Under the pieces are notes generated by a model, which saw nothing but the letters and a program-made list of their open reading frames with translations, ran no database searches and was not told the origin of the DNA. Shown piece by piece: positions 12,257 to 55,001 of a DNA stretch of 64,000 bases. Origin of the DNA: Symbiopectobacterium purcellii (lineage in GTDB: Bacteria; Pseudomonadota; Gammaproteobacteria; Enterobacterales; Enterobacteriaceae); assembly GCF_019797845.1 (NCBI RefSeq), contig NZ_CP081864.1, forward strand, positions 4,216,001 through 4,280,000. The letters are read 5' to 3'. Positions within the stretch are counted from its first letter, which is position 1, and the number at the start of each line of letters is the position of its first letter. Made by a program: the position numbers and the translations under genes.

Positions 12257-12286
12257 AGAGCAACGTTTTGTTGAGAGGAATGGAAT

Positions 12287-38420: not shown

Positions 38421-39878
38421 TCACCAGACCAGCGTGCGCAGCGTCTGTTTCACCCCATGCTGAAGCAGTGACTGATAGTAGCGGGTCACTGTCGCGACAA
38501 ACTCGCGCTGCTGCGGCAAGTCTGGTCCAAAGATAGCCTCCAGCCCCAGCAAGGCCTGTACGCGGGCTTCTCCTTGAGCACTGTTACGCACCACATCAGC
38601 CAGCACATCACGTAGCGGGTCGCTGATATCAATCGCGTTCCCTTGCTCGTCTACGCCGCCAACATAGCGCATCCACCCAGCTACACCGAGCGCCAGCATG
38701 TCAAAACGGCTGCCGTGTGCCAGATGCCAGCGAATCGAATCCAGCATGCGCTGTGGCAATTTCTGCGAGCCGTCCATGGCAATTTGCCAGGTACGGTGCT
38801 TCAGCGCACGGTTGCGGTAACGCTGCAACAGTGCGTCAGCGTAAGCCGCCAGATTGACTCCCTGCGTGCGCAATGTGGGCGCCTGCTCTTGCAGCATCAG
38901 GTGATGTGCCGCGTTGACCAACGCCTCGTCCTGCATGCAGTCGCTGATGTGTGCATAACCCGCCAGATAACCGAGGTACGCCAGGAAAGAGTGGCTGCCA
39001 TTCAACATGCGCAGTTTCATCTCTTCATACGGCAGTACGTCCTGTACCAGCTCTGCGCCCGCCTTTTCCCATGCGGGACGCCCGTTGACGAAGTTGTCTT
39101 CAATCACCCACTGAAAGAACGGCTCGCAGGCAATGCCCGCCGGGTCGTTCACGCCCAGCAGTTCGGTGATCTGCTCCAGCGTTTCCGGCGTCATCGCCGG
39201 TACGATACGATCCACCATGGTGGAAGGGAACGTCACATGTTGCGCGACCCAGAGAGCCAGTTCAGGATCCTGACGCTGCGCCAGTTGGGTTATCACGTTG
39301 CGTGTCACATGGCCATTTTCCGGCATGTTGTCGCACGACATCACGCTAAATGGCGACACACCACGCGCTATACGGCGTTTGATCGCAGCCAGAATGACAC
39401 CCGGCAAAGAGCGCGGTTGATCCGGATGCTGGAGATCGTGCGCAATCAGCGGATGCTCTGCGTTAAGCTGTCCGGTCGCCGGATGGTGGCAGTAGCCTTT
39501 TTCCGTCACCGTGATGGATACGATAGCGATATCCGGTGCGCTTAATGCCTCCAGCACCGCCTCGATGCCGTCCAACTCCGCGTGCAAAGCGGTTTTGGCA
39601 ATACCGACAATGCGGCTGGTCCAGCCATTGTCCGCCATTTCAGATACCGACCAAAGCAGATCCTGCTGGCGAAGATCCTGAATCTGTTGCTCACCGCCAA
39701 TCAGATTGATTTCGCAATAGCCCCAATCGCTGCCGAACTGTGCGGCCAGTTTGTCGGCACACACCGCCTGGTGGGCGCGGTGAAATGCGCCGAAACCAAT
39801 ATGGGCAATACGTGCAACCAGTTTGCTGCGGTCATATTCAGGCACCGCGGCTTTTGCCTGTAAGAGAGAGGTTGTCAT
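38421..39878 (-). CDS. uxuB: Fructuronate reductase/mannitol dehydrogenase family protein (UxuB)
   Basis: About 485 residues (E. coli UxuB has 486). It interconverts D-fructuronate and D-mannonate with NAD(H). The nucleotide-binding region [15 protein letters not shown], the family motif [17 protein letters not shown], catalytic lysine region around [19 protein letters not shown] and the N-terminal GDS-free long-chain polyol dehydrogenase layout are visible. The ATG at 39878 is chosen; the frame upstream has only a TTG. It is the last gene of the operon, followed by a terminator. Confidence 0.93.
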
Positions 39879-39920
39879 AACAGTTTTTCCCAACGTAGAC
39901 GCTTGCGCATCCGATTACAT

Positions 39921-41465
39921 TTACTCACCCACCGGCGAAGCTGTCCGTGAGCCTTTCACCGATGACACATCCTTTTGATGCCACAGCGTGTCATAAGGAT
40001 GACCGGTTAAATCCTCGACGATACGGCGTGTTTCTGGTGTCACATCCTGTTTTCTGCCATCGGCTTTCAAGCGTTCCACTTCGTCCACAAACACCTTGTG
40101 CGTGGTTTTATTCAGATGGAAGGTCAGTGCCTGCCACAGCGCTATCAGCAATAGACTGGTGGTGCCAATAAACATCAACCCAGCAATGGTTTGAATCGCT
40201 TCCTGCGGTTGCGCTTGGCTGCCTTTCATAAAACCGCCCCACTGCAACAGCAGGCCGACAATAAAGGTGGCAATCGCGACCTTGGTTTTACGTGAGAAGG
40301 TCATTACCGCAGCAAAAAGCCCTTCACGACGCTGACGGGTGATCATTTCATCAATATCAGGAATGAACGGGAACACGTTCCACGGGGTGAACTCCAGCAC
40401 GCAGCGGCCTACCTGATAGAAACCGGCCAGCGCCACCAGCATCACCATCTTGTTTTCCACCGGGAAACGGTAGACATAGAAGAACCCGGCCAGACACAGC
40501 ATCATCAGCGTGTAGGCAAAGATATACAGGCGCGATGGGCCATATTTAATGATCGCCAACCCGGACAGCAACGTCACTGGCAGCCCGACAGTACTCATGG
40601 AGAGCAGGCTTCCGGCAAACGCCGAGGAGACGTTCAGGCAGTAGACACAGAAGAACACAAACACGGTGTTGTAGACATCTTTAGCCGTGAAGGAGAACAA
40701 ATAAATAGCCAGGTGTTTTCTAAAGGCACGCACACGCAGTGTTGAAGCATAATCCTTAAACAACCCGCCCAGCATACGCAGTTTTTCACTCAGGGTGCGC
40801 GGTGGCGTTTCCGCCTCCAACTCTGCCAGCATTTCCGGCGTCAGTTCGCGTTCCCAGGTCACTTTCCAAGAGATGAACACACACACCATAAAGATAACCG
40901 AGAACATGACACCGTTGATCAGGTACGCATTCGCATCATGCTCACCGTAGTGCTTAATTAGCAGGCCAGGGATAAAGGTCGCAAGAAACGTCCCCAACGC
41001 CGAGAGAAACATACGGCAGGTAGAGAGTTTGGTGCGCGAGTTAAACCCTTTCGTCATTTCGGACGGCAGCGTCTCCCACGGGATCAGCACCATCGCGGCA
41101 ATGACTTCAAACGCCAGGTACACCGCCAGATAGAACCAGTAATTCATGCCGTTGAGCCACAGCAACGAATACACCAGCATCAACGGCGCACCGATCAACA
41201 GAAAGAATCTGCGGCGGCCAAATTTCTTACCGAAATAGTTTTTATAAAAGTGGTCGGTAAAACTGCCCATAAACAGGCTGACAATCGCATCGACAATACG
41301 CGCAATAGCGACGATCGAAGCAGCTTCCACCGGCGTTAAACCTACAAAAGTGGTATAGAAAAAGAGTAACCAAGCCCCGATCACGGTAAAGGCACCGCCA
41401 CCCATAATATCCGTCAGACCATAGCCGATACTGACCGGTATAGTCACTTTCTTAGCAGCAGACAT
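39921..41465 (-). CDS. GPH-family sugar/sugar-acid:cation symporter
   Basis: A 514-residue, 12-helix transporter of the glycoside-pentoside-hexuronide family: the start SIGYGLTDIMGGGAFTVIGAWLLFFYTTFVGL, the loop FMGSFTDHFYKNYFGKKFGRRRFFLLIGAPLM and IPWETLPSEMTKGFNSRTKL are typical. Genes on both sides (uxaC, uxuB) indicate that it imports a hexuronate or hexuronide such as glucuronate. The exact substrate cannot be read from sequence. A C-terminal hydrophilic tail of about 60 residues is longer than in MelB or UidB. Confidence 0.9.
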   Translation of the reverse strand: MSAAKKVTIPVSIGYGLTDIMGGGAFTVIGAWLLFFYTTFVGLTPVEAASIVAIARIVDAIVSLFMGSFTDHFYKNYFGKKFGRRRFFLLIGAPLMLVYSLLWLNGMNYWFYLAVYLAFEVIAAMVLIPWETLPSEMTKGFNSRTKLSTCRMFLSALGTFLATFIPGLLIKHYGEHDANAYLINGVMFSVIFMVCVFISWKVTWERELTPEMLAELEAETPPRTLSEKLRMLGGLFKDYASTLRVRAFRKHLAIYLFSFTAKDVYNTVFVFFCVYCLNVSSAFAGSLLSMSTVGLPVTLLSGLAIIKYGPSRLYIFAYTLMMLCLAGFFYVYRFPVENKMVMLVALAGFYQVGRCVLEFTPWNVFPFIPDIDEMITRQRREGLFAAVMTFSRKTKVAIATFIVGLLLQWGGFMKGSQAQPQEAIQTIAGLMFIGTTSLLLIALWQALTFHLNKTTHKVFVDEVERLKADGRKQDVTPETRRIVEDLTGHPYDTLWHQKDVSSVKGSRTASPVGE

Positions 41466-41495
41466 GTTCTATCCTCATTAAAATGAGAGTAATAA

Positions 41496-42902
41496 TCAGA
41501 ATTTAAAATAGTGTAGGGCGTTATCGTGACAAATATTTCTTACCATACGTTGCAGGATAATGTCATCTGCGGGAAATTCCCCGGCATCGATCCATTGTCC
41601 AATTAATCCACATAATATCCGGCGGAAATAATCGTGACGCGGGTAAGAAACAAAGCTGCGCGAATCGGTCAGCATACCGACAAAATTCATCAGCAACCCT
41701 TGATCCGCCAGCGCGTTAAGCTGGCTCAACATGCCACGGCGCGTATCGTTAAACCACCAGCCTGACCCGAACTGAAGCGGTGATTTAACCCCCTCTTCGC
41801 CGGACTGGAAGTTGGCAATCGTCGAAGCCACAATGTCATTGTAGGCTGCGTATAAGTTATAAATGATTGTCCTGGGTAAATGATTCTCCTCGGCCATTGC
41901 ATTGAGAAATGCATTAAGATTGGCTGCCAAGCGGGGTTGATCGGCAATAGCGTCAAATCCACTATTTACCCCCACTTTTTCCAACATGCGTTGATTATTA
42001 TTGCGGATCGCCCCGAAATGAATTTGCATAGCCCAATCGTATTTTTTATATAACCGGGCCAGCGTAATAAATAATACGCTTTGCCAAATACTCTCTTCCG
42101 CAGCGGTAATTACTTCGCTCTGCATTTTTTTCTGGAATACCGCATCCCCTTGTAGCGTGGTGAACGGTGTAAAAGTTAAATCGCCCAGCCCGTGATCGGA
42201 AATACGACAGCCCACCTCGTGGAAAAACTGCACTCGCGCTTCCAGCGCACGCTCAAAATCCGTGAAGCGGGTAATGGTTTCACCGGTCAATTCCGCCAAA
42301 CGCACCAAAGCCGAAGAGAACTGGTGTCTGTCGTGCGAGAAAAACTCGTCCGGTCGAAAGGTCGGCAATACTTTGGGGGTAAAACTGGCATCCTGCTTCA
42401 ATAACTGATGGTAATGCAGAGAATCCAGCGGCGAATCCGTGGTGCAAATAACCTCAACCCGAGAACGCATCATTAACGCACGTGGTGTGAAAGCATCATC
42501 CTGCAACTGCCGGTTGCAGGCATCCATAATGTCACGCCAGTTACGGCTGCTCAGCATCTCATCAATGCCGAAGTAGTGTTTCAGTTCCAGATGCGTCCAG
42601 TGATAGAGCGGGTTACCAAACGCCGCTTCAACGGTTTCTGCCCACGCCTGAAATTTTTCTTCAGGGAAGGCATTACCCGTGATCTTTGCTTCTGGGATAC
42701 CGTTGGCGCGCATCGCGCGCCATTTGTAGTGATCGCCTGCCAGCCACAGTTCCGTGATACTGCTGAAACGGCGGTTTTCATAAATGTCTTTGGCTTCCAA
42801 ATGGCAGTGGTAGTCAATAATCGGTAAATCCCGCGCCACCTGCTGATAGAGTGTGACCCCGGTCGGGCTGCCTATCATGAAATTGTCGTTAATCAAGCTC
42901 AT
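41496..42902 (-). CDS. uxaC: Glucuronate/uronate isomerase UxaC
   Basis: A 468-residue uronate isomerase that turns D-glucuronate to D-fructuronate and D-galacturonate to D-tagaturonate. Family features are IIDYHCHLEAKDIYENRRFSSITELWLAGDHYKWRAMRANGI with metal-binding His residues, HWTHLELKHYFGI, ICTTDSPLDSLHYH, and the C-terminal RHDYFRRILCGLIGQWIDAGEFP. Length matches E. coli UxaC (470). Located 30 bases after the transporter start in coding order manD-uxaC-transporter-uxuB. Confidence 0.97.
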   Translation of the reverse strand: MSLINDNFMIGSPTGVTLYQQVARDLPIIDYHCHLEAKDIYENRRFSSITELWLAGDHYKWRAMRANGIPEAKITGNAFPEEKFQAWAETVEAAFGNPLYHWTHLELKHYFGIDEMLSSRNWRDIMDACNRQLQDDAFTPRALMMRSRVEVICTTDSPLDSLHYHQLLKQDASFTPKVLPTFRPDEFFSHDRHQFSSALVRLAELTGETITRFTDFERALEARVQFFHEVGCRISDHGLGDLTFTPFTTLQGDAVFQKKMQSEVITAAEESIWQSVLFITLARLYKKYDWAMQIHFGAIRNNNQRMLEKVGVNSGFDAIADQPRLAANLNAFLNAMAEENHLPRTIIYNLYAAYNDIVASTIANFQSGEEGVKSPLQFGSGWWFNDTRRGMLSQLNALADQGLLMNFVGMLTDSRSFVSYPRHDYFRRILCGLIGQWIDAGEFPADDIILQRMVRNICHDNALHYFKF

Positions 42903-42937
42903 TGCTTTTCTCCCGCATCATCACCGTTGATGATCGC

Positions 42938-44152
42938 TTACCAGTTCCACAGCGTGCCGTCTTCCAAACGAGCCACCGGCAGGTAGGCCGGTTCGTAGGG
43001 GTATTTCGCCGCCAGTTTTTCGTCAAACTCGATGCCCAGCCCCGGTTTTTCTCCCGGATGCATGTAGCCATCCTCAAACGTCCAACTGTGCGGGAACACT
43101 TCCAGCATCTGCTCGGAGTAGCCCATGTATTCCTGTACGCCGAAATTCGGCACCCAGAGATCGAAGTGCAGCGCGGCGGCCATACAGATCGGAGACAAGT
43201 CGGACGGGCCGTGTGAACCGGTACGAACCTGGTACAGCGATGCAAAATCGGCAATGCGGCGCATGCCCGAGATACCGCCCGCATGCGTAATGGTGGTGCG
43301 GATGTAGTCGATGAGCTGTTCTTCGATAAGCTGCTTACAATCCCAAATGCTGTTAAACACTTCCCCGACGGCAATCGGTGTTACCGTGTGCTGACGAATC
43401 AAGCGGAAGCATTCCTGATTTTCAGCCGGCGTCGGATCTTCCATCCAGAACAGGCGGTAGGGTTCGACACTTTTACCAAAGCGGGCGGCTTCAATCGGCG
43501 TCAGGCGGTGATGCATGTCATGCAGCAGGTGTTCGTTGAAGCCGTATTTATCACGCACCGCTGCAAACAGTTTCGGTGCGAAATCCAGATACTTTTCCGT
43601 TGACCAGAGCTGCTCTTCGGGCCAGTTCCCTTTAGTGGCCGGTTCATACGCCAGACCTTTCCCTTTGGCCATGCCATAGGTGGTTTTCATTCCCGGTACG
43701 CCGCACTGCACGCGAATCGCCTTGAAGCCCATTTCGCGGTGTTTGGCGTAATCATCCAGCGCTTCATCAATGCTGTGCCCGGTGGTATGGCAATACACCA
43801 TTACCCCTGTGCGCGACGCACCGCCCAGCAGCTGATACAGCGGCATGTTGGCAACCTTGCCTTTAATGTCCCACAGCGCCATATCTACCGCCGAAATGGC
43901 TGACATGGTTACCGGGCCACGACGCCAGTAGGCTCCTTTGTAGAAAAATTGCCAAATATCCTCAATCTGTTGCGCATCGCGCCCGATGAGCTGCGGACAA
44001 ACATGATCTTTCAGGTAGGAAGCGACCGGTAGCTCACGCCCGTTCAGCGTAGCATCGCCGATACCTGTCACACCGTCTTCGGTAGTGATTTTCAGGGTGA
44101 CAAAATTACGCCCTGGGCAGGTAACAAATACTTCAGCACTGACAATTTTCAC
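42938..44152 (-). CDS. rspA: D-mannonate dehydratase of the enolase superfamily (ManD/RspA)
   Basis: 404 residues, the same length as E. coli RspA and close to it throughout ([95 protein letters not shown]). Enolase-fold ManD enzymes dehydrate D-mannonate to 2-keto-3-deoxygluconate. Metal ligands Asp (DMHH), Glu (MEDP) and Glu (GEVF) are present. As first gene of an operon with uxaC and uxuB, it supplies the step that UxuA performs in E. coli. Confidence 0.93.
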
Positions 44153-44301: not shown

Positions 44302-45210
44302 TTAGCAGGCAGGACGAAGGGAAATTCGGTTTTCTTCAATAAAATCAATGAAGAGTTTAACCATGGGGATTTGCGCACTGCGCTTGAGATAGCTGACAGC
44401 GAAAATGCGTGGCAACGGGGTTTCCAACGGGGTGATGGTAATATCGAACCCTTCAAGGCTTCCGGCGACCTGGGTGCACAAGAACACGACACCGTTTTGA
44501 TTCATCACCAGATCCATGATGATATCGATATTGCTGCATTCGCGGAAATAGCTGGGCTTCAGCCCCTGTTTTGCATAAGCATCAGAAACAATGGCATGCT
44601 CACCGGTCCCTTTCTGCGGCACGATCAACCGCGCTTGTGCCAGGGTTTCAAGGTTCAGCGTCTTGTGCTGTGCCAACGGATGATTGCTCGCCATCACCGC
44701 CACCAGTTGATCTTCATACAGTACCTGATGCGCAAACAGCGGATCGTCCTGATAGTCGGCAAACGGAGTGGAATAGGAGAAATGGAGATCGCCGTTACGC
44801 ACCTTTTCTAACAAATCCATGCTGACACCATCAATGAATGACATCTCAATGTTAGGATAGCGCCGCTGAAACTGGCTAAAAATTTCGTAATGCCGCAGAC
44901 GGTTGAATATTGGAAGAACCCCGACTAACAATGCACCATCGTGGCTGTCTTCATAACCACGAATAAATTGCTCAATATCGTAATATTCTCTAATTATACC
45001 CCGTATTTTTTTGGCAAATGCCTTACCAAAAGGGGTAAGAGAAAATTGGCGCGTCGTGCGATTTATCAGTTTTCTTTCTGTTTCCTGCTCCAGACGCGCT
45101 ATCTCCTGCGAAAGAAACGCCTGAGAAATATTCAGTGTTTTCGCCGCTTTAGTAAAACTGCCAATGCGAATCAGTTCATGATAGTAGACAAGGCGCTTAA
45201 TATTTATCAT
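44302..45210 (-). CDS. LysR-family transcriptional regulator
   Basis: 302 residues. The N-terminal domain MINIKRLVYYHELIRIGSFTKAAKTLNISQAFLSQEIARLEQETERKLINRTTRQFSLTPFG is a clear LysR helix-turn-helix; the effector domain (GALLVGVLPIFNRLRHYEIF, LVAVMASNHPLAQH) follows. It precedes the hexuronate operon on the same strand with a 149-base gap, so it could regulate that operon, or the divergent secreted esterase gene. Which one is not decidable from sequence. Confidence 0.87.
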   Translation of the reverse strand: MINIKRLVYYHELIRIGSFTKAAKTLNISQAFLSQEIARLEQETERKLINRTTRQFSLTPFGKAFAKKIRGIIREYYDIEQFIRGYEDSHDGALLVGVLPIFNRLRHYEIFSQFQRRYPNIEMSFIDGVSMDLLEKVRNGDLHFSYSTPFADYQDDPLFAHQVLYEDQLVAVMASNHPLAQHKTLNLETLAQARLIVPQKGTGEHAIVSDAYAKQGLKPSYFRECSNIDIIMDLVMNQNGVVFLCTQVAGSLEGFDITITPLETPLPRIFAVSYLKRSAQIPMVKLFIDFIEENRISLRPAC

Positions 45211-45621
45211 TGATGCCTTAATTTATAATTAATAGATATAACTATTATATTAACACACAAAAAAACAAATGTGACAAGAGACACAAATAGCAGGTTGCCG
45301 AACGTGCTTAAATGAATTCCGCATAACAACACAATATATATTATTTATATGTGAATGCCAGGTTGCATAAATGGCATAGGGAACACGCATCTCAATAAAA
45401 CGATGTTAGCAGTATAAAGCTATTTTTCATTATCCACGTTATGCAGACCGGTGTGGCGCAAAGACACATTGCCGCATTGCTGCATTCATCTGCGAAAAAG
45501 GTATTCGCCCCTTTACTGTGCGAGTCGCGTCAACCTCTTTTTGGATGCGCTATTCGCGCACGCCCTATTCTGGGGTGGCAGGGGTTGGGAAATAATGCTT
45601 GTTAATCACTAAGGAATGATG
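45211..45621. promoter_or_regulatory. Divergent intergenic region with a CRP-like site
   Basis: These 411 bases separate the LysR gene from the secreted esterase gene. At 45270-45285 TGTGACAAGAGACACA matches nine of the ten defined bases of the CRP consensus. The region is otherwise AT-rich, and I see no gene or strong hairpin in the remainder. Confidence 0.45.
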
Positions 45622-46593
45622 ATGTCTACCAACAATAAATCGATGGCGCTGTGCCTGCTTTGTACTTTAGGGGGCTTATCCGCTACTGCCGCTATTGCAG
45701 ATGCGCCGTTACATACGTTATCCATAAAGAAGAGTGTTCCATCGGTAAAATTGATCTCCAACGTGGTTTTCTCTCAGGTGCAAATGCGCGGCTATTCCAA
45801 CGTGGCGCTAAAAATGGATATTTTGCAGCCTGAATCACCCAACGCCTTGCCCGCCGTGCTGTTTGTCACAGGCGGCGGTTTTATCAATGCCAACAAGGAT
45901 AATTACGTTCAACAGCGCTTGGCGATGGCTGAGGCAGGCTATGTGGTTGCCAGTATGGAATACCGTGTAGCACCGACCGTACTGTTTCCCGCACCGCTTG
46001 AAGATGTGAAATCAGCGGTACGTTATCTGCGAGCGCAGTCCGGAAAATTTGGTATTGATGGTGCACATATTGCGGTATTCGGCGCGTCGGCGGGCGGCTA
46101 TCTGGCCGCCTTCACCGGCACATCGAACGGCGACAAACAGTTTGATAAAGGGGAAAATCTGGATCAAAACAGCCAGGTTCAAGCGGTGATCGATTTCTAC
46201 GGACTCTCCGATTTGCTACGCGTCGGCGAGGGCTTCCCTGATGATGTGGTACAAAAACACACTTCCGCGTCAGCAACCGAGGCTATTTGGGTAAACGGCA
46301 CTTCCGTGTTCAACGATGGCGGCCCGATCACACGCTACCCTGAACGCGCTGCCGCTGCTAACCCCATCAATTACATTAACAGCAACACCCCTCCGTTCCT
46401 GATTATGCACGGCACCAAGGACACCATTGTCTCACCGCGCCAGACGGAAATACTGCATCAGGCATTATTACAAAAGGGCATTGATTCCACTTATTACTCG
46501 GTGAGCAATGCACAGCACGGCGGTGATTACTGGATGCAGCCAGAAATCATGAAAATTGTGATCCAGTTCTTGGATAAGCATTTAAAGGGCTAA
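45622..46593 (+). CDS. Secreted alpha/beta-hydrolase (esterase/lipase, hormone-sensitive lipase type)
   Basis: About 323 residues with a Sec signal peptide (MALCLLCTLGGLSATAAIADA). The alpha/beta-hydrolase domain shows the oxyanion motif TGGGFI (HGGG-like with T for H), nucleophile Ser in FGASAGGYLAAF, Asp in MHGTKDTIVSP and His in NAQHGGDYW. It would hydrolyse an ester in the periplasm; PNPLA or BD-FAE-type acyl esters are possible but not provable. Three ATG codons stand in a row; the third (45622) has the best distance from AAGGA. Monocistronic, followed by a hairpin. Confidence 0.85.
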   Translation: MSTNNKSMALCLLCTLGGLSATAAIADAPLHTLSIKKSVPSVKLISNVVFSQVQMRGYSNVALKMDILQPESPNALPAVLFVTGGGFINANKDNYVQQRLAMAEAGYVVASMEYRVAPTVLFPAPLEDVKSAVRYLRAQSGKFGIDGAHIAVFGASAGGYLAAFTGTSNGDKQFDKGENLDQNSQVQAVIDFYGLSDLLRVGEGFPDDVVQKHTSASATEAIWVNGTSVFNDGGPITRYPERAAAANPINYINSNTPPFLIMHGTKDTIVSPRQTEILHQALLQKGIDSTYYSVSNAQHGGDYWMQPEIMKIVIQFLDKHLKG

Positions 46594-47145: not shown

Positions 47146-47859
47146 ATGGAAGATCATTCCCGCCGCCGATTTCTTGCCTACATGGGGAGTGCCATTTTTG
47201 TGACTGGCAGTTCCTCATTGGCATTAGCAAATGAGGCTGCACCGCAAAACGCCACACCCGCTACCGGCACTCCGAAAGGGGTACGCTATGGCATGCTGCA
47301 CAACGAGTCACTGTGTATCGGCTGTAAAGCCTGTATCGGTGCCTGTAAAGAGACCAACAATGTTCCCGATGGCGTTACCCGCCTCGAGATCCTGACCTCG
47401 GTGAATATTCCGCGTACCTCGACCAGTCGTGCTGTACGCCAATATTTCCGTAAATCCTGCCAGCATTGTGAAAACCCGCCGTGCGTTTCCGTGTGCCCGA
47501 CCGGCGCTTCCTTTAAGGATGCGCTTACCGGCATCGTTGACGTTAACGACAAGCGCTGCGTAGGCTGCCGCTATTGCATCGCGGCTTGCCCTTACCACGT
47601 GCGCTTTATCAACCCGGTAACCAATACCGCCGATAAGTGCAACTTCTGCCGTGAGACCAATCTGGCCGCAGGCAAAAAACCAGCCTGCGTCGAGATCTGT
47701 CCGACCCACGCACTGGTGTTCGGTGATTTGAACGATCCGGCCAGCGATATTTCTCAAATGATCCTCGCCAACCCGACCTATCGTTCCAAGGTGTATCTGG
47801 GCACCGAGCCGCAGCTCTATCGCATTCCTGGCAAACGCGGGGTAATCGACAATGCATAA
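47146..47859 (+). CDS. NrfC-like periplasmic 4Fe-4S electron-transfer protein (Tat-exported)
   Basis: 237 residues. The N-terminus has a twin-arginine signal (SRRRFLAYMG). Four cysteine clusters follow: CIGCKACIGAC, CQHCENPPCVSVC, CVGCRYCIAAC and CNFC with downstream CVEIC, giving four [4Fe-4S] centres as in NrfC/DmsB-type subunits. It would carry electrons from the membrane protein NrfD, encoded next with an eight-base overlap, to a periplasmic acceptor. No nrfA or nrfB cytochrome gene is here, so the acceptor is probably the flavoprotein pair encoded downstream. Confidence 0.92.
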   Translation: MEDHSRRRFLAYMGSAIFVTGSSSLALANEAAPQNATPATGTPKGVRYGMLHNESLCIGCKACIGACKETNNVPDGVTRLEILTSVNIPRTSTSRAVRQYFRKSCQHCENPPCVSVCPTGASFKDALTGIVDVNDKRCVGCRYCIAACPYHVRFINPVTNTADKCNFCRETNLAAGKKPACVEICPTHALVFGDLNDPASDISQMILANPTYRSKVYLGTEPQLYRIPGKRGVIDNA

Positions 47860-48814
47860 TGCTTTCCACTTCGACACGCTGGTATGGGACTGGCCCATTG
47901 CCATCTATCTGCTTTTGGTGGGCATTTCCGCAGGCATGATCACCCTGACGATGCTGCTGAAACATTACGTGCCCACCGAGTACAGCGGCAAGAACCCTAT
48001 CGTTATCGCGACAGCTATCGTGGCACCGTTATCGGTGATGGTCGGTCTGATTATTCTGATCTTCCACCTGACGCGCCCGATGACCTTCTGGTACCTGATG
48101 GTGTTCTATAACCCTGGTTCCATCATGTCGCTCGGTGTGATGCTGTTTCAGGTCTACTTCGTGTTTATCATCCTGTGGCTGGTCAGCCTGTACCGTGATG
48201 AACTGCTGACGCTGGTGAGCAAATTCAATAACGGTGGCTTGCTCTCTCTGGTGCGTAACCTGAGTGCCATTATCCAGAAACGTATCAGTTGGTTTGAAAA
48301 CACACTGTTGGTGCTGGCAATCCTGTTGGGCTGCTATACCGGTTTCCTGTTGTCAGCGCTCAAATCCTTCCCGATGCTGAACAACCCGGTACTGCCGGTG
48401 CTGTTTCTCGCCTCGGGCACCACGTCAGGCATTGCGGTGGCGCTGCTGGCCGGAGCCTTTAATCGCCGGTTTATTGCCGAACATCAGGGCACACTGCATT
48501 TCATCCACAAGATTGAAAACCCAGTGGTGTTTGCAGAGATCTTCTTGCTGTTTGCCTTCTTTGTCGGGCTGTTGTTGGGCGGCGGTCAGAAAACCCTGTC
48601 GGCGCACAACGCACTGAGCGGGTTCTGGGGCGGCGTATTCTGGATTGGGGTTATCGGCGTAGGCATTGCGGTTCCGCTGATTGCCGGGTTCCTGAAGAAC
48701 CACGACAGTGTGCCAAGCCGCAAGCACATCGCGTTTATGGCGGGTCTCAGTCTGCTCGGTGTGTTCCTGCTGCGTATGTTTGTACTGTACGCCGGCCAGA
48801 TGACAGTAGCCTAA
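47852..48814 (+). CDS. NrfD-like quinol-oxidising membrane subunit
   Basis: 320 residues, eight or nine membrane helices, of the NrfD/PsrC family (WDWPIAIYLLLVGISAGMITLTMLLKHY, ILLGCYTGFLLSALKSFPML, FWGGVFWIGVIGVGIAVPLIAGF). Such proteins take electrons from menaquinol or ubiquinol and pass them to a partner NrfC-type iron-sulfur protein. Its start overlaps the iron-sulfur gene by eight bases; the MFS gene starts three bases after its stop. The operon thus contains a complete quinol-to-periplasm electron path. Confidence 0.92.
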   Translation: MHNAFHFDTLVWDWPIAIYLLLVGISAGMITLTMLLKHYVPTEYSGKNPIVIATAIVAPLSVMVGLIILIFHLTRPMTFWYLMVFYNPGSIMSLGVMLFQVYFVFIILWLVSLYRDELLTLVSKFNNGGLLSLVRNLSAIIQKRISWFENTLLVLAILLGCYTGFLLSALKSFPMLNNPVLPVLFLASGTTSGIAVALLAGAFNRRFIAEHQGTLHFIHKIENPVVFAEIFLLFAFFVGLLLGGGQKTLSAHNALSGFWGGVFWIGVIGVGIAVPLIAGFLKNHDSVPSRKHIAFMAGLSLLGVFLLRMFVLYAGQMTVA

Positions 48815-48817
48815 ACC

Positions 48818-50194
48818 ATGAAGACGTCGTGGACCCTGTTCTGGATTGCATCTATCACTTTTTTTATGCAATCCGTCGACACGACGATGTTGTATATCGC
48901 ACTGCCAGCCATTGCGGAGGCGTTTCACCAACCGGTGCTGCATATGGAGTTGATCGTTATCTCCTATGTTGTCACCGTGGTGGCTTTCACCCCCGTTAAT
49001 GGCTGGATGGCAGAGCGACTGGGTGAACGCAACACCTACCTTGTCGCCATCGCCATTTTTATGATCGGCTCGCTGCTGTGTGTCACCGCGACCTCTATCG
49101 TCAGTTTGAGCGCGTTTCGGTTTATACAAGGGATTGGCGGCGCGTTGATGCTGCCGATAATCAGAACCATCATTTTGAGGACCACGCCAGATACCATGAA
49201 ACTCCTATTCCTCAACCGCATTACCCTGCTGGGGTTACTGGGCACCATGATTGGCCCGGTGGTGGGGAGTTTGATGGTCAATATGCTGTCGTGGCGTCTG
49301 ATTTTTGTACTGAATATTCCTCTGTGCCTGGTCTGTCTGTGGCTTGCCAGAACACATATTCCCGCCAGTATGCAGGTTCCGCATTTTCGCGGAGACACCT
49401 ACAAGCTGATGCTGCTGGTCGGCATGCTGTTCCTTGGCACCTTTCTGCTGACGGCGATGCCGAAAAACATTATCAGCCTCCCACTGAGCGCCGCGTTGGC
49501 CCTCGGCGGATTCGGCCTGGCATTCCTATACTTCAAACGTGATGTGCTTGCCGCACGGCCTCAATCGCGTGAAAACCTGTTTACCATTAAAACGTTTTCC
49601 ATCGGTGTGACCAGCGGTATCGTCACGCGCATTTTACTCTCTTCAATACCGGTGGTGATGTCGCTGATGTTGCAAACCCAATTAGCGTATGAGCCCGCCA
49701 CCGTCAGCTTGATTTTACTGCTGTTTTCCAGCGGTGCCCTGCTCTCTAAACTGGGCTTTGAACCACTGATCAAACGGATTGGCTACCGCAAGCTGCTGCT
49801 GCACACCACGGTCTTTACCTCACTGTGTATTTTTGCCATGGGTGCCGCCGTGCAGGAGAACGCCACCCTCTTCATCGGTATTATTGCCGTGCTGCTCGGC
49901 ATTCTGATTTCGACGCTGCATTCCGCAGAGATCACACTGGCCTTCAGCAACCTGAGTCACCATACCTATAACAACGGCAATAACATTATGACGGTGACTC
50001 AGTTGCTCTCCATTATGGTTAGCATGGCGTTAACCTTTCCCATGCTGCGTTTTCTTACCCGCATGGAGAGCACCATTAATGTAAACAGCTTCAGTTTGTT
50101 ATTTATTTTACTCGGTATCGGATTACCCATTTGTTGTTTTATATTCATGCATCTCAATGAAGATGACGGCCATCATTTTATTCATGGGAGATAA
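48818..50194 (+). CDS. MFS transporter of the DHA2-like group
   Basis: A 458-residue transporter with 12-14 predicted helices: FFMQSVDTTMLYIALPAIAEAFH, NGWMAERLGERNTYL, IQGIGGALMLPIIRTIIL, resembling HsrA/MdtD-like drug:H+ antiporters. It lies three bases after the nrfD-like gene and before the flavoproteins, so it is part of the respiratory set. It may move the reduced or oxidised substrate across the inner membrane, or export an inhibitory compound; that role is inferred from position only. Confidence 0.87.
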   Translation: MKTSWTLFWIASITFFMQSVDTTMLYIALPAIAEAFHQPVLHMELIVISYVVTVVAFTPVNGWMAERLGERNTYLVAIAIFMIGSLLCVTATSIVSLSAFRFIQGIGGALMLPIIRTIILRTTPDTMKLLFLNRITLLGLLGTMIGPVVGSLMVNMLSWRLIFVLNIPLCLVCLWLARTHIPASMQVPHFRGDTYKLMLLVGMLFLGTFLLTAMPKNIISLPLSAALALGGFGLAFLYFKRDVLAARPQSRENLFTIKTFSIGVTSGIVTRILLSSIPVVMSLMLQTQLAYEPATVSLILLLFSSGALLSKLGFEPLIKRIGYRKLLLHTTVFTSLCIFAMGAAVQENATLFIGIIAVLLGILISTLHSAEITLAFSNLSHHTYNNGNNIMTVTQLLSIMVSMALTFPMLRFLTRMESTINVNSFSLLFILLGIGLPICCFIFMHLNEDDGHHFIHGR

Positions 50195-50269
50195 AGGAGA
50201 GCACGCGTAATTATTTTTCCGTTCAATATTACATTGAATATTTATACACTTTTTATTGGAACCGTTGAT

Positions 50270-50617
50270 ATGAAAGCATTTCAGGGTACGGCAGCCTTTT
50301 GTCTGCTGATTGCATCAAGCTTCGCTTTTGCAGACGGCGATTTTAAAGCAGGCACCTATTCTTCCGCCAGCACCGGTATCGGTGGTGACGTTACTGTCAC
50401 ACTCGATGTGGATGCACAAGGGAAAATCAATAAAGCCACGGTTGACGCGCCTTCTGAAACACCAGAAGTGGGTGGTGAAGCAGCAAAAGTGTTGGCTAAA
50501 AGCTTTGTTGAAAAACAGAGCGTCAACATTGATGGCGTGTCTGGCTCTACGTTAACCAGCGAAGCTGCATTAGAAGCGGCAGGCAACGCGTATAATCAAG
50601 CAAAAGTCACTAAATAA
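50270..50617 (+). CDS. Secreted FMN-binding domain protein with flavinylation motif
   Basis: About 115 residues: signal peptide (KAFQGTAAFCLLIASSFAFA) then one FMN-bind domain (AGTYSSASTGIGGDVTVTLDV). The C-terminal motif DGVSGSTLTS matches the ApbE recognition pattern, with Thr94 as the expected site of covalent FMN attachment. Such domains are usually fused to the N-terminus of urocanate/fumarate-type flavoreductases; here it is a separate protein encoded before the FAD subunit. It would pass electrons from the NrfC-like protein to the FAD subunit. An upstream in-frame ATG (50234) would add a hydrophobic extension and is less likely. Confidence 0.9.
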   Translation: MKAFQGTAAFCLLIASSFAFADGDFKAGTYSSASTGIGGDVTVTLDVDAQGKINKATVDAPSETPEVGGEAAKVLAKSFVEKQSVNIDGVSGSTLTSEAALEAAGNAYNQAKVTK

Positions 50618-50836
50618 CTGTTATTTATTTCTCGCAGCCTCGCTGCAAAATGAATATTTAAATTAAACATTCCTGCTGAATAATACCGGCAGGATAGTGA
50701 CTACGCGTTATTTCTTTTTTACCTTAAAAAGGATAACGCGAGCATGGCCCCCTTTTGCCAAAAACAAGGCGGGGAATAATAAGAGTAAAACCATCGCATC
50801 AATATTTTTATTACAACCATTGAGAGTGGAGAGTAT
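50618..50836. other. Intergenic gap between FMN-domain gene and FAD reductase gene
   Basis: 219 AT-rich bases. An imperfect stem around CCTGC...GCAGG (about 50671-50694) may attenuate transcription. Otherwise nothing is recognised. Confidence 0.35.
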
Positions 50837-52351
50837 ATGAAAATAGTCAGGAGAACGCTGATCGCAGCCGCCTGTTTATCGCTGTTGGGTACCGGTGCTG
50901 TCAATGCAGAAACTATCGTAAAAACGGCTGACGTAGTAATTATTGGTGCCGGAGCTTCAGGCACATCCGCCACCATGGCCGCAGCCGAAAAAGGCGCGAA
51001 AGTTATTCTGTTGGAAAAACAAGGTGTGGTCGGCGGCACCGGGAATTTTGCGGAAGGGATCTTCGCCGCAAACAGTTCCATGCAAAAACGTCAGGGGATT
51101 ATCGTCACCCCAGACATGGCGTTCAAAACCATCATGGAATACAGCCACTGGCTGGCTAACCCGTTCGTGGTTCGTGCGTTTGTTAACCGTTCTGCCGATA
51201 CCATCGAATGGGTGAAATCCAAAGGCATCAAGTTCGAATACATCGGCCCTGGGGGGCCAGGCGGGATGTTGACCTGGCACGTTATTGACGGTCCGGGCCA
51301 CGGTCGTTTCCTGATCAAAACCTTCCATGAGCAGTTTAAAAACATGGATGTCACCACCATGGAGAAAACCGCAGGTAAAGACTTGATCGTGAAAGACGGC
51401 AAAGTCACTGGCGTGACGGCGCAAGACGAGCAAGGCAACACCATCCAGATCGATGCCAAAGCGGTTATCGTCGCCACCGGTGGTTATGCCAACAACAAAG
51501 AGATGCTGCAAAAATACGTCGCCTTCCCAGATACCATTATGGTGGGCAACGTCGGTAAAGATGGCGACGGGATCAAAATGGCCTGGAAAGCCGGTGCCAA
51601 AGATGAAGGCATGGGTGTACTGCAAGCATACCGCCCTGGCCTGCCAGACTACGCGCCAAACTCCCACATGCTGGCCGCAGCGCGCCAACCTTATCTGTGG
51701 GTAGATACCCATGGACGTCGTTTTACCGATGAATCCAACGTCATCATTTGGCCTCACTCCGGTAATGCGCTCTCCAAAGCGGGCGGCATCATGTATTCCA
51801 TCTTTGATGAAACCTCACGTAAACATTACGTAGAAGACGGGATCGACGTGCCCATCGGTGAATGGGTTATCGCCAACACCAAGCTCACCAAGTTTGACGA
51901 TGAGTTTGATAAAGAGCTCCAGAAAAACCGCGGTTTTGTCTACAAGGCACAAACGCTGGACGCACTGGCTAAAGCCATGGGCGTTGACGCCAGCGTGCTG
52001 AAAGAGACTATCGATCAGAACAACGTCTTTGCCGCGCAAAAACGTGATGAAGTGTTCAACAAGAACATGGATTACCTGCGTCCGGTGAAAACCGGGCCGT
52101 TCTATGCCGTTAAAATGCAGCCTGCCGCACTCGGCACGCTGGGCGGCGTGAAAATTAACGAGAAGATGCATGCCATCAACAAGGACGGCAATGCCATCCC
52201 AGGTCTGTATGTCACCGGTAATGACGCAGGCGGCATGTACGGCGACACTTACGATCTGCTGTTAGGCGGCGGCACCTTCGGTTTCGCCCTGAACTCAGGC
52301 CGTATTGCCGCAGAAAGCGCGTTGGATTACATGCACTTCAAAAAACAATAA
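50837..52351 (+). CDS. Periplasmic FAD-dependent reductase (fumarate/urocanate reductase superfamily), substrate unknown
   Basis: 504 residues with a Sec signal peptide (LIAAACLSLLGTGAVNAE) and the FAD-binding FrdA fold: VVIIGAGASGTSATMAAAEKGAKVILLEKQ, VGGTGNFAEGIFA, AVIVATGGYANN, and C-terminal GLYVTGNDAGGMYGDTYDLLLGGG. Compared from memory with Shewanella fumarate reductase FccA, the catalytic Arg402 region (NEITTRD) reads DESNVII here, the HHTMGG His reads LGTLGG, and the ANRLGGN Arg reads TYDLLLGG. The His365 position reads Tyr (QAYRP), as in urocanate reductase. Fumarate is therefore unlikely. It lacks the usual N-terminal FMN domain, which is encoded separately upstream. Confidence 0.88.
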   Translation: MKIVRRTLIAAACLSLLGTGAVNAETIVKTADVVIIGAGASGTSATMAAAEKGAKVILLEKQGVVGGTGNFAEGIFAANSSMQKRQGIIVTPDMAFKTIMEYSHWLANPFVVRAFVNRSADTIEWVKSKGIKFEYIGPGGPGGMLTWHVIDGPGHGRFLIKTFHEQFKNMDVTTMEKTAGKDLIVKDGKVTGVTAQDEQGNTIQIDAKAVIVATGGYANNKEMLQKYVAFPDTIMVGNVGKDGDGIKMAWKAGAKDEGMGVLQAYRPGLPDYAPNSHMLAAARQPYLWVDTHGRRFTDESNVIIWPHSGNALSKAGGIMYSIFDETSRKHYVEDGIDVPIGEWVIANTKLTKFDDEFDKELQKNRGFVYKAQTLDALAKAMGVDASVLKETIDQNNVFAAQKRDEVFNKNMDYLRPVKTGPFYAVKMQPAALGTLGGVKINEKMHAINKDGNAIPGLYVTGNDAGGMYGDTYDLLLGGGTFGFALNSGRIAAESALDYMHFKKQ

Positions 52352-52399: not shown

Positions 52400-53038
52400 C
52401 TATCCCGCCTTACGAAATGTCAGATTAAACCGGTAATCTTCCGTTCCTGCTTTGATAGCCTGCACACCGTGAAAACGCAGGCGTGACGGCCCGCCCCACA
52501 CCAGCACATCCCCCTGCGTCAGCGGGATACGCTGTACAGCATCGCTGCGTTGCATACCGCCAAACTGAAAGATGGCCGGTAACCCGAGCGACACGGAAAC
52601 AATCGGCTGCGAGAAATCCCGCTCATTTTTATCCTGATGCAACGACATCCGGCTGCCTACCGCATAGCGATTCATCAGGCACGCATCGGCAACAAAGTCA
52701 GGAAACCCCGCCTCATACGCGGCCTGTTGCGCCAGTTGAGCAAACAGCAGCGGCATCGCAGGCCAGGGCAATCCCGTAAGAGGATCGTGGCGCGCATAGC
52801 GATAACCCTGGACATCTGTCACCCAGCCCAGTGAGCCGCAATTGCTCATGGCGGCCGACATGACAAAACCGCCCGGCGTGGTCATCTGTCGAAACGGCGC
52901 CACGCGCGTCAGTTGATCAATCATCTGCATTAACGCTGGCGCACTCTCAGCGGCGAACCCGCGCAGCACCACGGCGCCCGGTGCCAGCGTCTGCGTCCAG
53001 CGCGGTGTGCCCTTGTGGGCAAACAGATCATCCATCAT
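52400..53038 (-). CDS. alkB: DNA oxidative demethylase AlkB
   Basis: About 212 residues (E. coli AlkB 216). A 2-oxoglutarate/Fe(II) dioxygenase that repairs 1-methyladenine and 3-methylcytosine in DNA. Visible are the iron-binding LHQDKNE (HxD), distal His in LRFHGV, 2-oxoglutarate Arg in YRFNLTFR, and CLMNRYAVGSRMSLH. The ATG at 53038 overlaps the end of ada, so the two are coupled as in E. coli; the longer frame from 53113 lies inside ada and is rejected. Confidence 0.96.
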   Translation of the reverse strand: MMDDLFAHKGTPRWTQTLAPGAVVLRGFAAESAPALMQMIDQLTRVAPFRQMTTPGGFVMSAAMSNCGSLGWVTDVQGYRYARHDPLTGLPWPAMPLLFAQLAQQAAYEAGFPDFVADACLMNRYAVGSRMSLHQDKNERDFSQPIVSVSLGLPAIFQFGGMQRSDAVQRIPLTQGDVLVWGGPSRLRFHGVQAIKAGTEDYRFNLTFRKAG

Positions 53039-54122
53039 GGGATCCTTTAGCCTCGCTCTCCAGCAGTTGGCGTTTACGCGCGATGCCCCACCGATAGCCT
53101 GACAACGCACCATCGGTGCGAATCACCCGATGGCAAGGGACAATCACCGCCAGGCGGTTGGCGGCGCATGCGCCAGCCACCGCGCGCACCGCGTCTGGCT
53201 GACCAATTTTTTCAGCCACATCGCGGTAGCTGAGCGTGGTTCCCCGGGGAATGTCTCGCAGAGCCTGCCAGACACGCAGTTGAAACGCCGTGCCACGAAT
53301 ATCGAGGGGTAACGCCAACGGAGCCCCCGGTGAATCAATAGCGCGAATGACCAGCGCCATGCGTTGCTCAAACGTCGCATCGCCTGCAACCAACGTCGCA
53401 TTGGCAAACAGCGCGTGCAGCTCGTTTATCAATGCAGTGGCATCATCTCCCAGTAAAACAGCGCAGACCCCGCGCTCGCTCTCCGCCACCAGAGTAGCCC
53501 CCAGCGAGCATGCACCAATAGCAAAATGAATCGTCATGCCCTGCCCCTTGTGTTTAAAACTGCGCGGCGGCATGCCCAGCAGTTGATGGGATTCCTGATA
53601 GAACTGCTCGCTGGAATGAAAACCCGCCGCCAATGCGGCTTGCGTTACCGGCGCATTACCACTCAGCAAGGCGCGCACACGCTGACCACGCAACGCGGCA
53701 GCATAACGCTTTGGCGTTACGCCAACCTGAGCTTTAAACAGCCGGTGAAAATGGTAGGGGCTGATACCCACCGCCGTTGCCACCTGCGCCAACGTCAGCG
53801 ATGTCTCGGCCTGCGCCATCAGTTGGCAGGCGTGCGTAATAGCCGCACCTTGCCGCTGCTCACGGGACGGGTTTCCTGGGCAGCAACGCTTACAGGGCCG
53901 GAACCCGGCCCGCCGCGCCGCCTCCGCATCCACAAAGAACTGCACGTTTTCCCGCAGCGGCAATCGGGATGCGCAGGAAGGCATACAAAATATCCCCGTG
54001 GTTTTAACGCCATAGACAAAGCGACCGTCAGCCTGTTTATCACGTCGGCACAGGGCATCCCACCAGCTATTTTCGCGTTGAGCACGTTCTTCCTCTGGAA
54101 AAGCGCGTTCGTTTGTCGACAT
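53028..54122 (-). CDS. ada: Ada: methylphosphotriester/O6-methylguanine methyltransferase and regulator
   Basis: About 364 residues. N-terminal Ada zinc domain with the acceptor Cys in GIFCMPSCASR and further ligands in FRPCKRCCPG; AraC-type helix-turn-helix (LAQVATAVGISPYHFHRLFKAQVGVTPKRYAAALR); C-terminal methyltransferase with the acceptor Cys in VIVPCHRVIRTDGALSGYRWG. It repairs alkylated DNA and, once methylated, activates ada-alkB and alkA. The ATG at 54122 has GAGG six bases upstream; a GTG lies one codon earlier. Confidence 0.96.
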   Translation of the reverse strand: MSTNERAFPEEERAQRENSWWDALCRRDKQADGRFVYGVKTTGIFCMPSCASRLPLRENVQFFVDAEAARRAGFRPCKRCCPGNPSREQRQGAAITHACQLMAQAETSLTLAQVATAVGISPYHFHRLFKAQVGVTPKRYAAALRGQRVRALLSGNAPVTQAALAAGFHSSEQFYQESHQLLGMPPRSFKHKGQGMTIHFAIGACSLGATLVAESERGVCAVLLGDDATALINELHALFANATLVAGDATFEQRMALVIRAIDSPGAPLALPLDIRGTAFQLRVWQALRDIPRGTTLSYRDVAEKIGQPDAVRAVAGACAANRLAVIVPCHRVIRTDGALSGYRWGIARKRQLLESEAKGSHDG

Positions 54123-54296
54123 CACTCACCTCGCAGTCTCTGGTCACAACAGCGATCACACCCTACCGGTTACGTCTGATGAATACCTGACTGATTCTTG
54201 CTTTCTCATTCCAGAAACGCATCGCAGGGTGACAACCCTGATTCACTCTTTTATGCTGCAGGTCCGCCCCCCTTTCTCTCAGGTTCAGGATCAAGT
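54123..54296. promoter_or_regulatory. Divergent ada/alkA promoter region
   Basis: The region holds both promoters of the adaptive-response genes. GAGAAAGCAAG on the minus strand (about 54198-54208) vaguely recalls the E. coli Ada box AAAGCGCAA, but the match is too weak for a firm call. Confidence 0.35.
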
Positions 54297-55001
54297 ATGT
54301 CACACCCGCAGCCGGTATTATGGAACTCGGCGCAGAGCGTGCATCTGGCATGCGAACATCTGCGCACGCTTGGGACGCGCTGGCAAGCGCTGCTGGACCA
54401 CATCGGCGAGTGTCAGCACCAAACGTACCCGCATCGTGAACCCTATGAAGCGTTGATGCGTGCCGTGGCTTACCAACAGCTCACCACCCGCGCGGGTGAT
54501 GCCATGATCCGCCGCCTGTTGGACGCGTTTAGTCCTGATGGGCAGGTATTCCCTTCCGCTGAGCGGATTGCTGCCAGTGAGAAAGACACGCTGCGCCACT
54601 GTGGCTTCTCAACGCGCAAGGCAGAGACGCTGCACTTGATTGCGCAGGGGGCACGCGACGGTTTGGTGCCCACGCGAGAACAGGCGCTGACCATGGATGA
54701 CGACACGCTCATCGAACGGTTATCGTCGTTGAAAGGCATTGGTCGCTGGACGGTCGAAATGTACCTGATTTATGGATTGGAACGAATGGACATTATGCCG
54801 CTGGACGATCTCGGGATCCGCTTAGGGTTATGCTATTTGCATCAGCGCGATGCAATACCCTCACGCCGGGAATTGGCGGAACTCAGCCTGCCGTGTCAGC
54901 CTTTTAGCACCGTTGCCGCCTGGTATTTGTGGCGCAGCCCGATGATGCCAGACTACGCCGATTTCAAACGTCGTCTGAAAACCAGCAACCGCAAAGGCTG
55001 A
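54297..55001 (+). CDS. alkA: DNA-3-methyladenine glycosylase II-type (AlkA/MAG, HhH-GPD)
   Basis: About 234 residues. Base-excision glycosylase with helix-hairpin-helix LSSLKGIGRWTVEMYLIYGLERMDIMPLDDLGIR; the second Asp in PLDDLG is the expected catalytic aspartate. It lacks the N-terminal TBP-like domain of E. coli AlkA (282 residues) and so is nearer the compact MAG type. Start at 54297 has AGGA upstream; the in-frame extension from 54198 is promoter DNA. It is divergent from ada, so likely Ada-controlled. Confidence 0.9.
   Translation: MSHPQPVLWNSAQSVHLACEHLRTLGTRWQALLDHIGECQHQTYPHREPYEALMRAVAYQQLTTRAGDAMIRRLLDAFSPDGQVFPSAERIAASEKDTLRHCGFSTRKAETLHLIAQGARDGLVPTREQALTMDDDTLIERLSSLKGIGRWTVEMYLIYGLERMDIMPLDDLGIRLGLCYLHQRDAIPSRRELAELSLPCQPFSTVAAWYLWRSPMMPDYADFKRRLKTSNRKG

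Follow-up and report, generated by a model that had tools for sequence, protein, structure and literature searches.

Organisation of the gene cluster

The window analysed here is a stretch of 64,000 nucleotides from Symbiopectobacterium purcellii (contig NZ_CP081864.1, positions 4,216,001 to 4,280,000), taken from a genome that is a single contig of 4,942,431 bases, and the system in question is a cluster of genes within it that encodes a putative respiratory flavoreductase. Comparison with Pfam and NCBIfam models identified a set of five genes, all on the forward strand between positions 47146 and 52351, encoding an NrfC-like protein, NrfD, a transporter of the major facilitator superfamily (MFS), an FMN_bind protein and a FrdA-like FAD reductase. 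The nrfC and nrfD genes overlap, the MFS gene begins 3 bases later, and the FMN_bind gene (ATG at 50270) and the FAD gene follow after gaps of 75 and 219 bases. An earlier note on this DNA, made from the letters alone, had listed open reading frames (ORFs) at 47146–47859, 47852–48814, 48818–50194 and 50837–52351 on the forward strand together with the FMN_bind gene, and all of these were found. The extent given there was probably too narrow, as the cluster appears to reach upstream to an esterase gene (45616–46593, forward strand) and a LysR-type gene (44302–45210, reverse strand).

The gene order is kept in other genera, and the ratio of nonsynonymous to synonymous substitution rates over six genes, measured between the window and two genomes of the same genus, was 0.008–0.127, which argues that the cluster is not a chance assembly. 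The FAD genes of two other genomes of the genus (G001 and G002) are broken into pieces, so the upkeep of the gene in the window's genome is informative. The closest named relatives at the locus are Candidatus Symbiopectobacterium records, with 99% identity in the FAD protein. Members of Symbiopectobacterium are insect symbionts, and the organism of the window is a close relative of plant soft-rot bacteria. Two loci on records titled Serratia marcescens 1001295B_180824_A7 (L015 and L062; JADMXW010000008.1 and JADMXW010000005.1) cluster with Symbiopectobacterium and have 98% FAD-protein identity to the window; the title seems wrong.

NrfC and NrfD

The NrfC-like protein (47146–47859, forward strand) contains the twin-arginine motif SRRRFL and 16 cysteines, enough for four predicted [4Fe-4S] clusters, in agreement with the earlier description of an iron-sulphur protein exported by the twin-arginine pathway. 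It scored 329 bits against TIGR03149, below the cut-off of 377.6 bits, and its best sequence match in the PDB was 2vpw_B, named 'NRFC PROTEIN'. The adjoining gene (47852–48814, forward strand; PF03916, 292 bits) encodes an NrfD-family membrane subunit that exceeded the TIGR03148 cut-off (421 against 347.6 bits). NrfCD of the nitrite reductase type oxidises quinol, and the window NrfD is presumed to be a quinol oxidase.

NrfA (PF02335) was not found in the genome of the window, nor in the more distant genome G018. The nrfA gene was present in all four same-genus relatives searched, interrupted in G002, and each of the four has another nrfD gene near nrfA, in pieces or interrupted in three of them. 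The window NrfD is 48% identical to the NrfD adjoining nrfA in the sister genome G003. Since the window's genome lacks NrfA and its only other PF03916 match is TtrC, NrfCD is most simply read as a donor dedicated to the flavoproteins and not borrowed from nitrite reduction. TtrC belongs to a tetrathionate reductase locus (ttrA, ttrB and ttrC, 1886679–1891503 of the contig) that scored above all three NCBIfam cut-offs in this genome without nrfA. An NrfD that passes the NCBI model for the cytochrome c nitrite reductase subunit in a genome without NrfA illustrates that automated naming can mislead.

The FMN_bind protein and the transporter

The FMN_bind gene (50270–50617, forward strand) encodes a protein of 115 amino acids with a PF04205 domain (50 bits, cut-off 22) and a hydrophobic, Sec-like N-terminal stretch. 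The ORF list opens this frame at TTG 50234, and ATG 50270 is the better start. Counted from this ATG, the earlier numbering of Thr94 holds; its codon lies at 50549–50551 (forward strand) within DGVSGSTLTS, an SG.T-type motif of the kind found in proteins flavinylated by ApbE, and the protein is predicted to carry covalent FMN at this residue. The genome contains one ApbE match (2680969–2681820 of the contig). The earlier note contrasted the separate FMN gene with the often fused domain of known urocanate or fumarate flavoreductases; a separate gene is not unusual by itself, as 189 gene clusters with a separate FMN-binding gene beside a PF00890 FrdA-like enzyme have already been reported (PMC8238504). 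The MFS transporter (48818–50194, forward strand; PF07690) is nearest to the curated efflux families MdtD and DHA2 (EmrB), with scores below the cut-offs of both PRK10504 MdtD (191 against 426 bits) and TIGR00711 (103 against 230 bits).

The FAD reductase

The FAD protein (50837–52351, forward strand) has 504 amino acids, a FAD_binding_2 domain (PF00890, 204 bits) and an N-terminus that is signal-like by hydrophobicity, features which together with its fold identify it as an exported FrdA-like flavoreductase. The best of 18,950 NCBIfam models was the vinylphenol reductase VprA (NF053717) at 399 bits, the next best scoring 226 bits. VprA was also the best model for all eight relatives scanned, each below the cut-off at 285–391 bits. 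The reference used for comparison, a plasmid-borne Lactiplantibacillus plantarum protein whose gene adjoins a LysR gene, scores 784 bits, above the VprA cut-off, and is 34% identical to the window protein over 473 aligned positions, with the motifs YSH, TWH, GDTY and GNDA in common. By sequence, the FAD protein is kin of VprA and not a member of that family.

Tyr102, His104, His148, Asp470 and Tyr472 were invariant in all 113 rows of the alignment, rows which overlap in origin and are not independent, and are also found in the VprA reference. YSHW and GDxYD belonged to the search patterns, so their invariance in 76 loci is partly selection, while His148 and Arg266 were outside the patterns; the invariance of YSHW and GDxYD also holds in an earlier alignment of 37 rows.

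The FAD protein lacks the residues that bind the carboxylate and donate the proton in fumarate and urocanate reductases. FccA Arg402, His504 and Arg544 align with Ile303, Leu432 (the next His with Gly433) and Leu475, and FccA His365 aligns with Tyr265, so that the missing Arg/His/Arg set and the tyrosine described earlier are both borne out by the alignment. Across the 113 rows, Leu or Val occupies column 432 and Gly always occupies column 433; Arg never occurs in column 303 and is found in column 475 in two rows. The corresponding UrdA residues (Arg411, His520 and Arg560) bind the substrate carboxylate, and the R411A and R560A variants are inactive (PMC7921117). The carboxylate-binding triad is replaced in VprA too, where the three positions hold D, F and N.

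An AlphaFold2 model of the FAD protein had a mean predicted local distance difference test score of 90.2. The best Foldseek matches were the urocanate reductase structures 6t85 and 6t86, with flavocytochrome c3 also matched (E-values of 1e-38 to 1e-37); 3-ketosteroid delta1-dehydrogenases were matched with template modelling scores (TM-scores) of 0.76–0.78.

A second FAD paralogue, 47% identical and broken by a stop, lies at 164065–165592 of the contig; it is uninterrupted in G003 and G004, and its counterparts at L062 and L073 have no NrfCD, MFS or FMN genes nearby.

Conservation of the cluster

A profile scan of a collection of 84,980 species gave 161 pattern matches, of which 140 were confirmed and the best 80 kept as loci. 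Four loci with FAD frames of 420 amino acids or fewer (L027, L028, L044 and L069) were left out of the alignment and of the tree, which has 79 rows. Seventeen of the 80 loci, from Symbiopectobacterium, Pectobacterium, Dickeya, Brenneria izbisi and Edaphovirga, have NrfC, NrfD and FMN_bind genes no further than 6 kb from the FAD gene, with genes broken into pieces in three (L027, L028 and L044). An MFS gene was present in every one of these 17. A lack of conservation of the MFS and NrfCD genes with the flavoproteins, which the earlier note had named as one result that would count against it, was thus not seen within these Enterobacterales.

The order LysR (reverse strand), esterase, NrfC, NrfD, MFS, FMN and FAD is found in Symbiopectobacterium, Dickeya, Brenneria izbisi and Pectobacterium, except that P. 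fontis has no esterase there. Edaphovirga cremea has a second, rearranged set in the order FAD, NrfC, NrfD, MFS and FMN (L054), and in the more distant lineage of G018 one locus (L183), part of which reads N, retains MFS, FAD and NrfD genes and part of an FMN_bind gene; the tree labels it NrfCD+FMN although these are the only genes of the set seen there. L183 joins VprA in the tree, a placement flagged as a possible long-branch effect. The rearranged Edaphovirga set and L183 together indicate that FAD proteins from more than one lineage are accompanied by the module. At L183 (4467–6352) the FMN_bind start and a DGMTGAT motif are out of frame with each other, and the motif opens the FAD frame, an arrangement resembling an out-of-frame FMN–FAD fusion.

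A small cytochrome gene lies no more than 300 bases from the FAD gene in 18 of the 80 loci, preceding it in 16 and following it in two; 16 of these genes encode four CxxCH motifs and two encode three. These relatives include Geobacteraceae, Deferribacterota, Shewanella and more, and no NrfC or FMN_bind genes were found near any of them. The proposed link of the flavoproteins to NrfCD therefore holds within the 17 NrfCD+FMN loci and is not universal, a cytochrome gene standing in its place in these 18. The identities of the genes neighbouring the cytochromes rest on similarity to a small number of query sequences, supplemented by Pfam for ten of the proteins. Within 6 kb, an MFS gene of another subfamily was found in 14 of the 18, and an OprD-type (four) or other porin-like (nine) gene in 13; a divergent regulator of the XylR_N (aromatic-activator) type lay upstream of the cytochrome and FAD genes in 11, and a GntR gene was present in four. 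Pfam returned XylR_N for all four regulators checked, MFS_1 for all three transporters (one, at L065, from outside the 18) and OprD for two of three porin-like proteins, the third (L033) matching no family, so that the nine similar to it are porin-like by eye. The other 45 of the 80 loci had neither NrfCD+FMN nor a cytochrome partner within these limits, in some cases because the contig ends.

The esterase, the regulator and the decarboxylase

The upstream esterase (45616–46593, forward strand) belongs to the BD-FAE family (PF20434, 179 bits, cut-off 26.8) and has a signal-like hydrophobic N-terminus. Of the 17 NrfCD+FMN loci, 14 have an esterase of this family upstream and no further than 6 kb from the reductase. 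It is probably a feruloyl or acetyl esterase resembling FaeD; the feruloyl activity is drawn from the Pfam family because none of the matches listed in a protein search (120 of 1190) was called a feruloyl esterase, and the best PDB relative was 'Lip_vut4, C3L'. Dickeya feruloyl esterases are reportedly encoded next to FaeR and induced by ferulate, FaeT being said to be cytoplasmic. In the genus holding D. undicola, two close BD-FAE copies were found in G124 and G307 and four in G234; in all three the reductase-linked copy (73–74% identical) has a signal-like start, while one copy in each (L200, L201 and L205) has none. Two CE10 feruloyl esterases, FaeD and FaeT, are described from Dickeya (PMC10319131), and FaeD is secreted (PMC9007343). 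As the linked copy has a signal-like start and another lacks it, the linked gene may be faeD, a tentative assignment made from the signal pattern.

The LysR-type protein (44302–45210, reverse strand; LysR_substrate and HTH_1 domains) is encoded divergently from the esterase, in the same place and orientation in the Pectobacterium, Dickeya, B. izbisi and Edaphovirga loci, and is probably the regulator of the cluster. FNR sites were set aside as evidence: within 400 bases upstream of nrfC, a match at 9 of 10 positions occurred in 11 of 21 regions, three of the 11 being second copies from the same genome, and crude two-base shuffles reached 9 in 2–6.5% of cases.

The genome of the window has one gene for a phenolic acid decarboxylase (PF05870). 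The gene was present in all five same-genus genomes searched, adjoining in each a second BD-FAE-like gene (assigned by similarity and confirmed with Pfam in the window's genome). This adjacency was seen only in the genus of the window (five genomes); four other genomes that were fetched have LysR and decarboxylase genes without the esterase. Across the family, with at most five candidates scored per genome, the decarboxylase was found in 8 of the 13 genomes that carry the reductase, compared with 70 of the 282 that do not (Fisher p 0.007, kinship not corrected); in one of the 13 (G168), the 59% relative lacks the NrfCD set.

Proposed pathway and alternatives

The five-gene set very probably passes respiratory electrons, without cytochromes, to a C=C bond outside the inner membrane. 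Such a cytochrome-free path from quinol to the periplasm had been suggested before and is supported here; that the cluster serves respiration is an inference. NrfD would oxidise (mena)quinol in the inner membrane, and the electrons would cross the four iron-sulphur clusters of NrfC to a covalent FMN, attached to the FMN_bind protein by the single ApbE of the genome. From FMN they would pass to the FAD of the VprA-like protein, which would reduce a phenolic alkene at its C=C bond in the periplasm and so give an ethylphenol.

The earlier description of the substrate as unknown understates the evidence. The kinship with VprA, the BD-FAE esterase beside a LysR gene, the decarboxylase beside a second BD-FAE-like gene and the XylR_N regulators near relatives all point to plant phenolics, none amounting to proof, and suggest that the acceptor derives from ferulate-like phenolics of plant cell walls. 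The exported esterase would free ferulate or p-coumarate from hydroxycinnamate esters of the wall, the decarboxylase encoded elsewhere would turn the acid into 4-vinylguaiacol or 4-vinylphenol in the cytoplasm, and the efflux-type MFS transporter would expel the vinylphenol to the periplasm. This reading, a quinol-linked periplasmic reductase of hydroxycinnamate-derived phenolic alkenes whose acceptor is a vinylphenol supplied by esterase and decarboxylase, is given a probability of roughly 0.4, and 4-vinylphenols are favoured as substrates ahead of hydroxycinnamates. A wider and more tentative proposal is an undescribed anaerobic respiration in which soft-rot Pectobacteriaceae and related symbionts use vinylphenols or hydroxycinnamates, freed from plant walls by a co-encoded feruloyl esterase, as terminal acceptors through NrfD, NrfC, FMN and FAD, with Geobacteraceae (under XylR-type aromatic control), Deferribacterota and Shewanella supplying a reductase of this kind through a small multihaem cytochrome.

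Several observations weigh against the vinylphenol reading. The FAD protein falls below the VprA equivalog cut-off (399 against 600 bits), VprA sits on a very long branch of the tree (about 2.6–2.7 changes per column), and Arg266 (109 of 113 rows), Trp305 (95) and Asp473 (98) are not common to VprA; Arg266 could hold a carboxylate. The esterase is missing from three of the 17 clusters, namely both Edaphovirga clusters and that of P. fontis. The decarboxylase is absent from 5 of the 13 reductase genomes, including one of the two from the genus holding P. versatile, and on a circular contig its distance from the reductase would be about 1.0 Mb. In none of the 80 loci was a decarboxylase-like or ApbE-like ORF found within 6 kb, the flanks of some loci being shorter than that. 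The direction of the transporter is taken from its family, and upstream of the window nrfC no strong FNR-like site was found, the best matching 7 of 10 positions.

Some of these points favour the same chain with a different acceptor. The acceptor could be a hydroxycinnamate (ferulate, p-coumarate, caffeate or their esters) reduced to a phenylpropionate without decarboxylation and with Arg266 holding the carboxylate, a possibility that we regard as less likely: a linked esterase with a signal-like start would free the acid outside the cytoplasm, Arg266 is widely kept among the relatives and absent from VprA, and the decarboxylase is not always present. Set against this are the loss of the carboxylate-binding Arg/His/Arg set, the action of the nearest characterised enzyme on vinylphenols (PMC10295242) and an efflux-type transporter that would have no clear role. 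Slightly less likely again is a different alkene, either aromatic (for instance a stilbene, a cinnamyl alcohol or a styrene type) or non-aromatic, with the esterase a mere neighbour; the retention of the esterase in 14 of 17 loci speaks against it, while the esterase-free Edaphovirga and P. fontis clusters speak for it, as does the general association of XylR_N with aromatics, a domain that adjoins the cytochrome-linked relatives and not the window cluster.

The remaining explanations change the chain or its direction. It is improbable that the module runs in reverse, dehydrogenating a phenolic or other compound and passing electrons through NrfCD into the quinone pool: the structural matches to 3-ketosteroid delta1-dehydrogenases and the occurrence of NrfD-like subunits in several energy-transducing complexes (PMC8076601) would allow it, but the closest match of both NrfC and NrfD is the nitrite reductase type, and the relatives have small tetrahaem cytochromes like that of the methacrylate reductase operon (PMC4427408). 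A fumarate or urocanate reductase whose catalytic residues have moved elsewhere in the protein would fit the best Foldseek matches and some source names that say fumarate reductase; the residues that fill columns 303, 432, 433 and 475, in the window protein and across the 113 rows, make this highly improbable. Equally remote is the idea that NrfCD serve formate-dependent nitrite reduction and are at this locus by chance, which the passing of the NCBI NrfD model would favour: no NrfA was found in the window's genome or G018, NrfCD is kept beside the MFS, FMN and FAD genes in all 17 loci, and the sister genomes have nrfA elsewhere with its own NrfD, in pieces or interrupted in several.

If such a respiration is real, plant pathogens and their symbiont relatives would respire phenolics that they free from plant tissue, and wall degradation, phenolic detoxification and energy conservation would be joined in one locus. 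A large unnamed clade of 'fumarate reductase' flavoproteins would gain a testable class of aromatic substrates. NrfCD would be a quinol-to-flavin donor outside nitrite reduction, and an NrfD call from a curated model would not be evidence of that process.

Neighbouring genes

Upstream of the set, a hexuronate cluster on the reverse strand (38421–44152) encodes fructuronate reductase, an MFS_2 transporter, glucuronate isomerase and D-mannonate dehydratase; this pathway fits feeding on plant walls. Apparently the same dehydratase, judged by its first residues, lies beyond the LysR gene in the Pectobacterium loci L170 and L173. Directly downstream, 52400–55001 resembles an adaptive DNA-alkylation repair set, with AlkB-, Ada- and AlkA-like proteins by eye. 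Elsewhere in the window, 9488–12922 on the forward strand encodes a large hybrid sensor kinase (NF011874, above the cut-off), followed by an ORF of 211 amino acids.

Comparison with known systems

In the openly licensed literature, an arrangement of NrfCD, FMN and MFS genes with a VprA-like reductase and an esterase was not found, which is weak evidence of absence. Little and colleagues are said to have made a study of respiratory flavin reductases in 2024. The nearest characterised enzyme is VprA of L. plantarum, which is the best curated match, has the YSH, TWH, GDTY and GNDA motifs, lacks the carboxylate triad and likewise has a LysR gene beside it. In contrast to the window protein, it has no export signal and neither FMN nor NrfCD genes beside it, and the score below the family cut-off and the residues Arg266, Trp305 and Asp473 further separate the two. 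UrdA of Shewanella and FccA resemble the window protein as exported FAD reductases of the same fold, and UrdA also has a covalent FMN domain and a tyrosine at the position of FccA His365 (PMC7921117). The window protein differs from both by the missing Arg/His/Arg set, by an FMN domain on a separate gene and by NrfCD in the same cluster.

The NrfABCD system is similar in that the window NrfD exceeds the family cut-off and NrfC is fairly close, and differs in that NrfA is missing from the genome and the window NrfD shares 48% identity with the nrfA-linked NrfD of a sister genome. Pairs of a tetrahaem cytochrome and a flavoprotein of the methacrylate reductase type (PMC4427408) resemble the relatives at 18 of the 80 loci, a pairing common outside Enterobacterales; the window has NrfCD and FMN genes instead. 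A paper in eLife from 2021 (PMC8238504) describes FrdA-like enzymes paired, as in the window, with an FMN_bind protein encoded separately, and its main text contains no occurrence of NrfD, Nrf or MFS. The module is a real, conserved, cytochrome-free periplasmic flavoreductase, and a variant of the FrdA-like respiratory reductases rather than a new kind.

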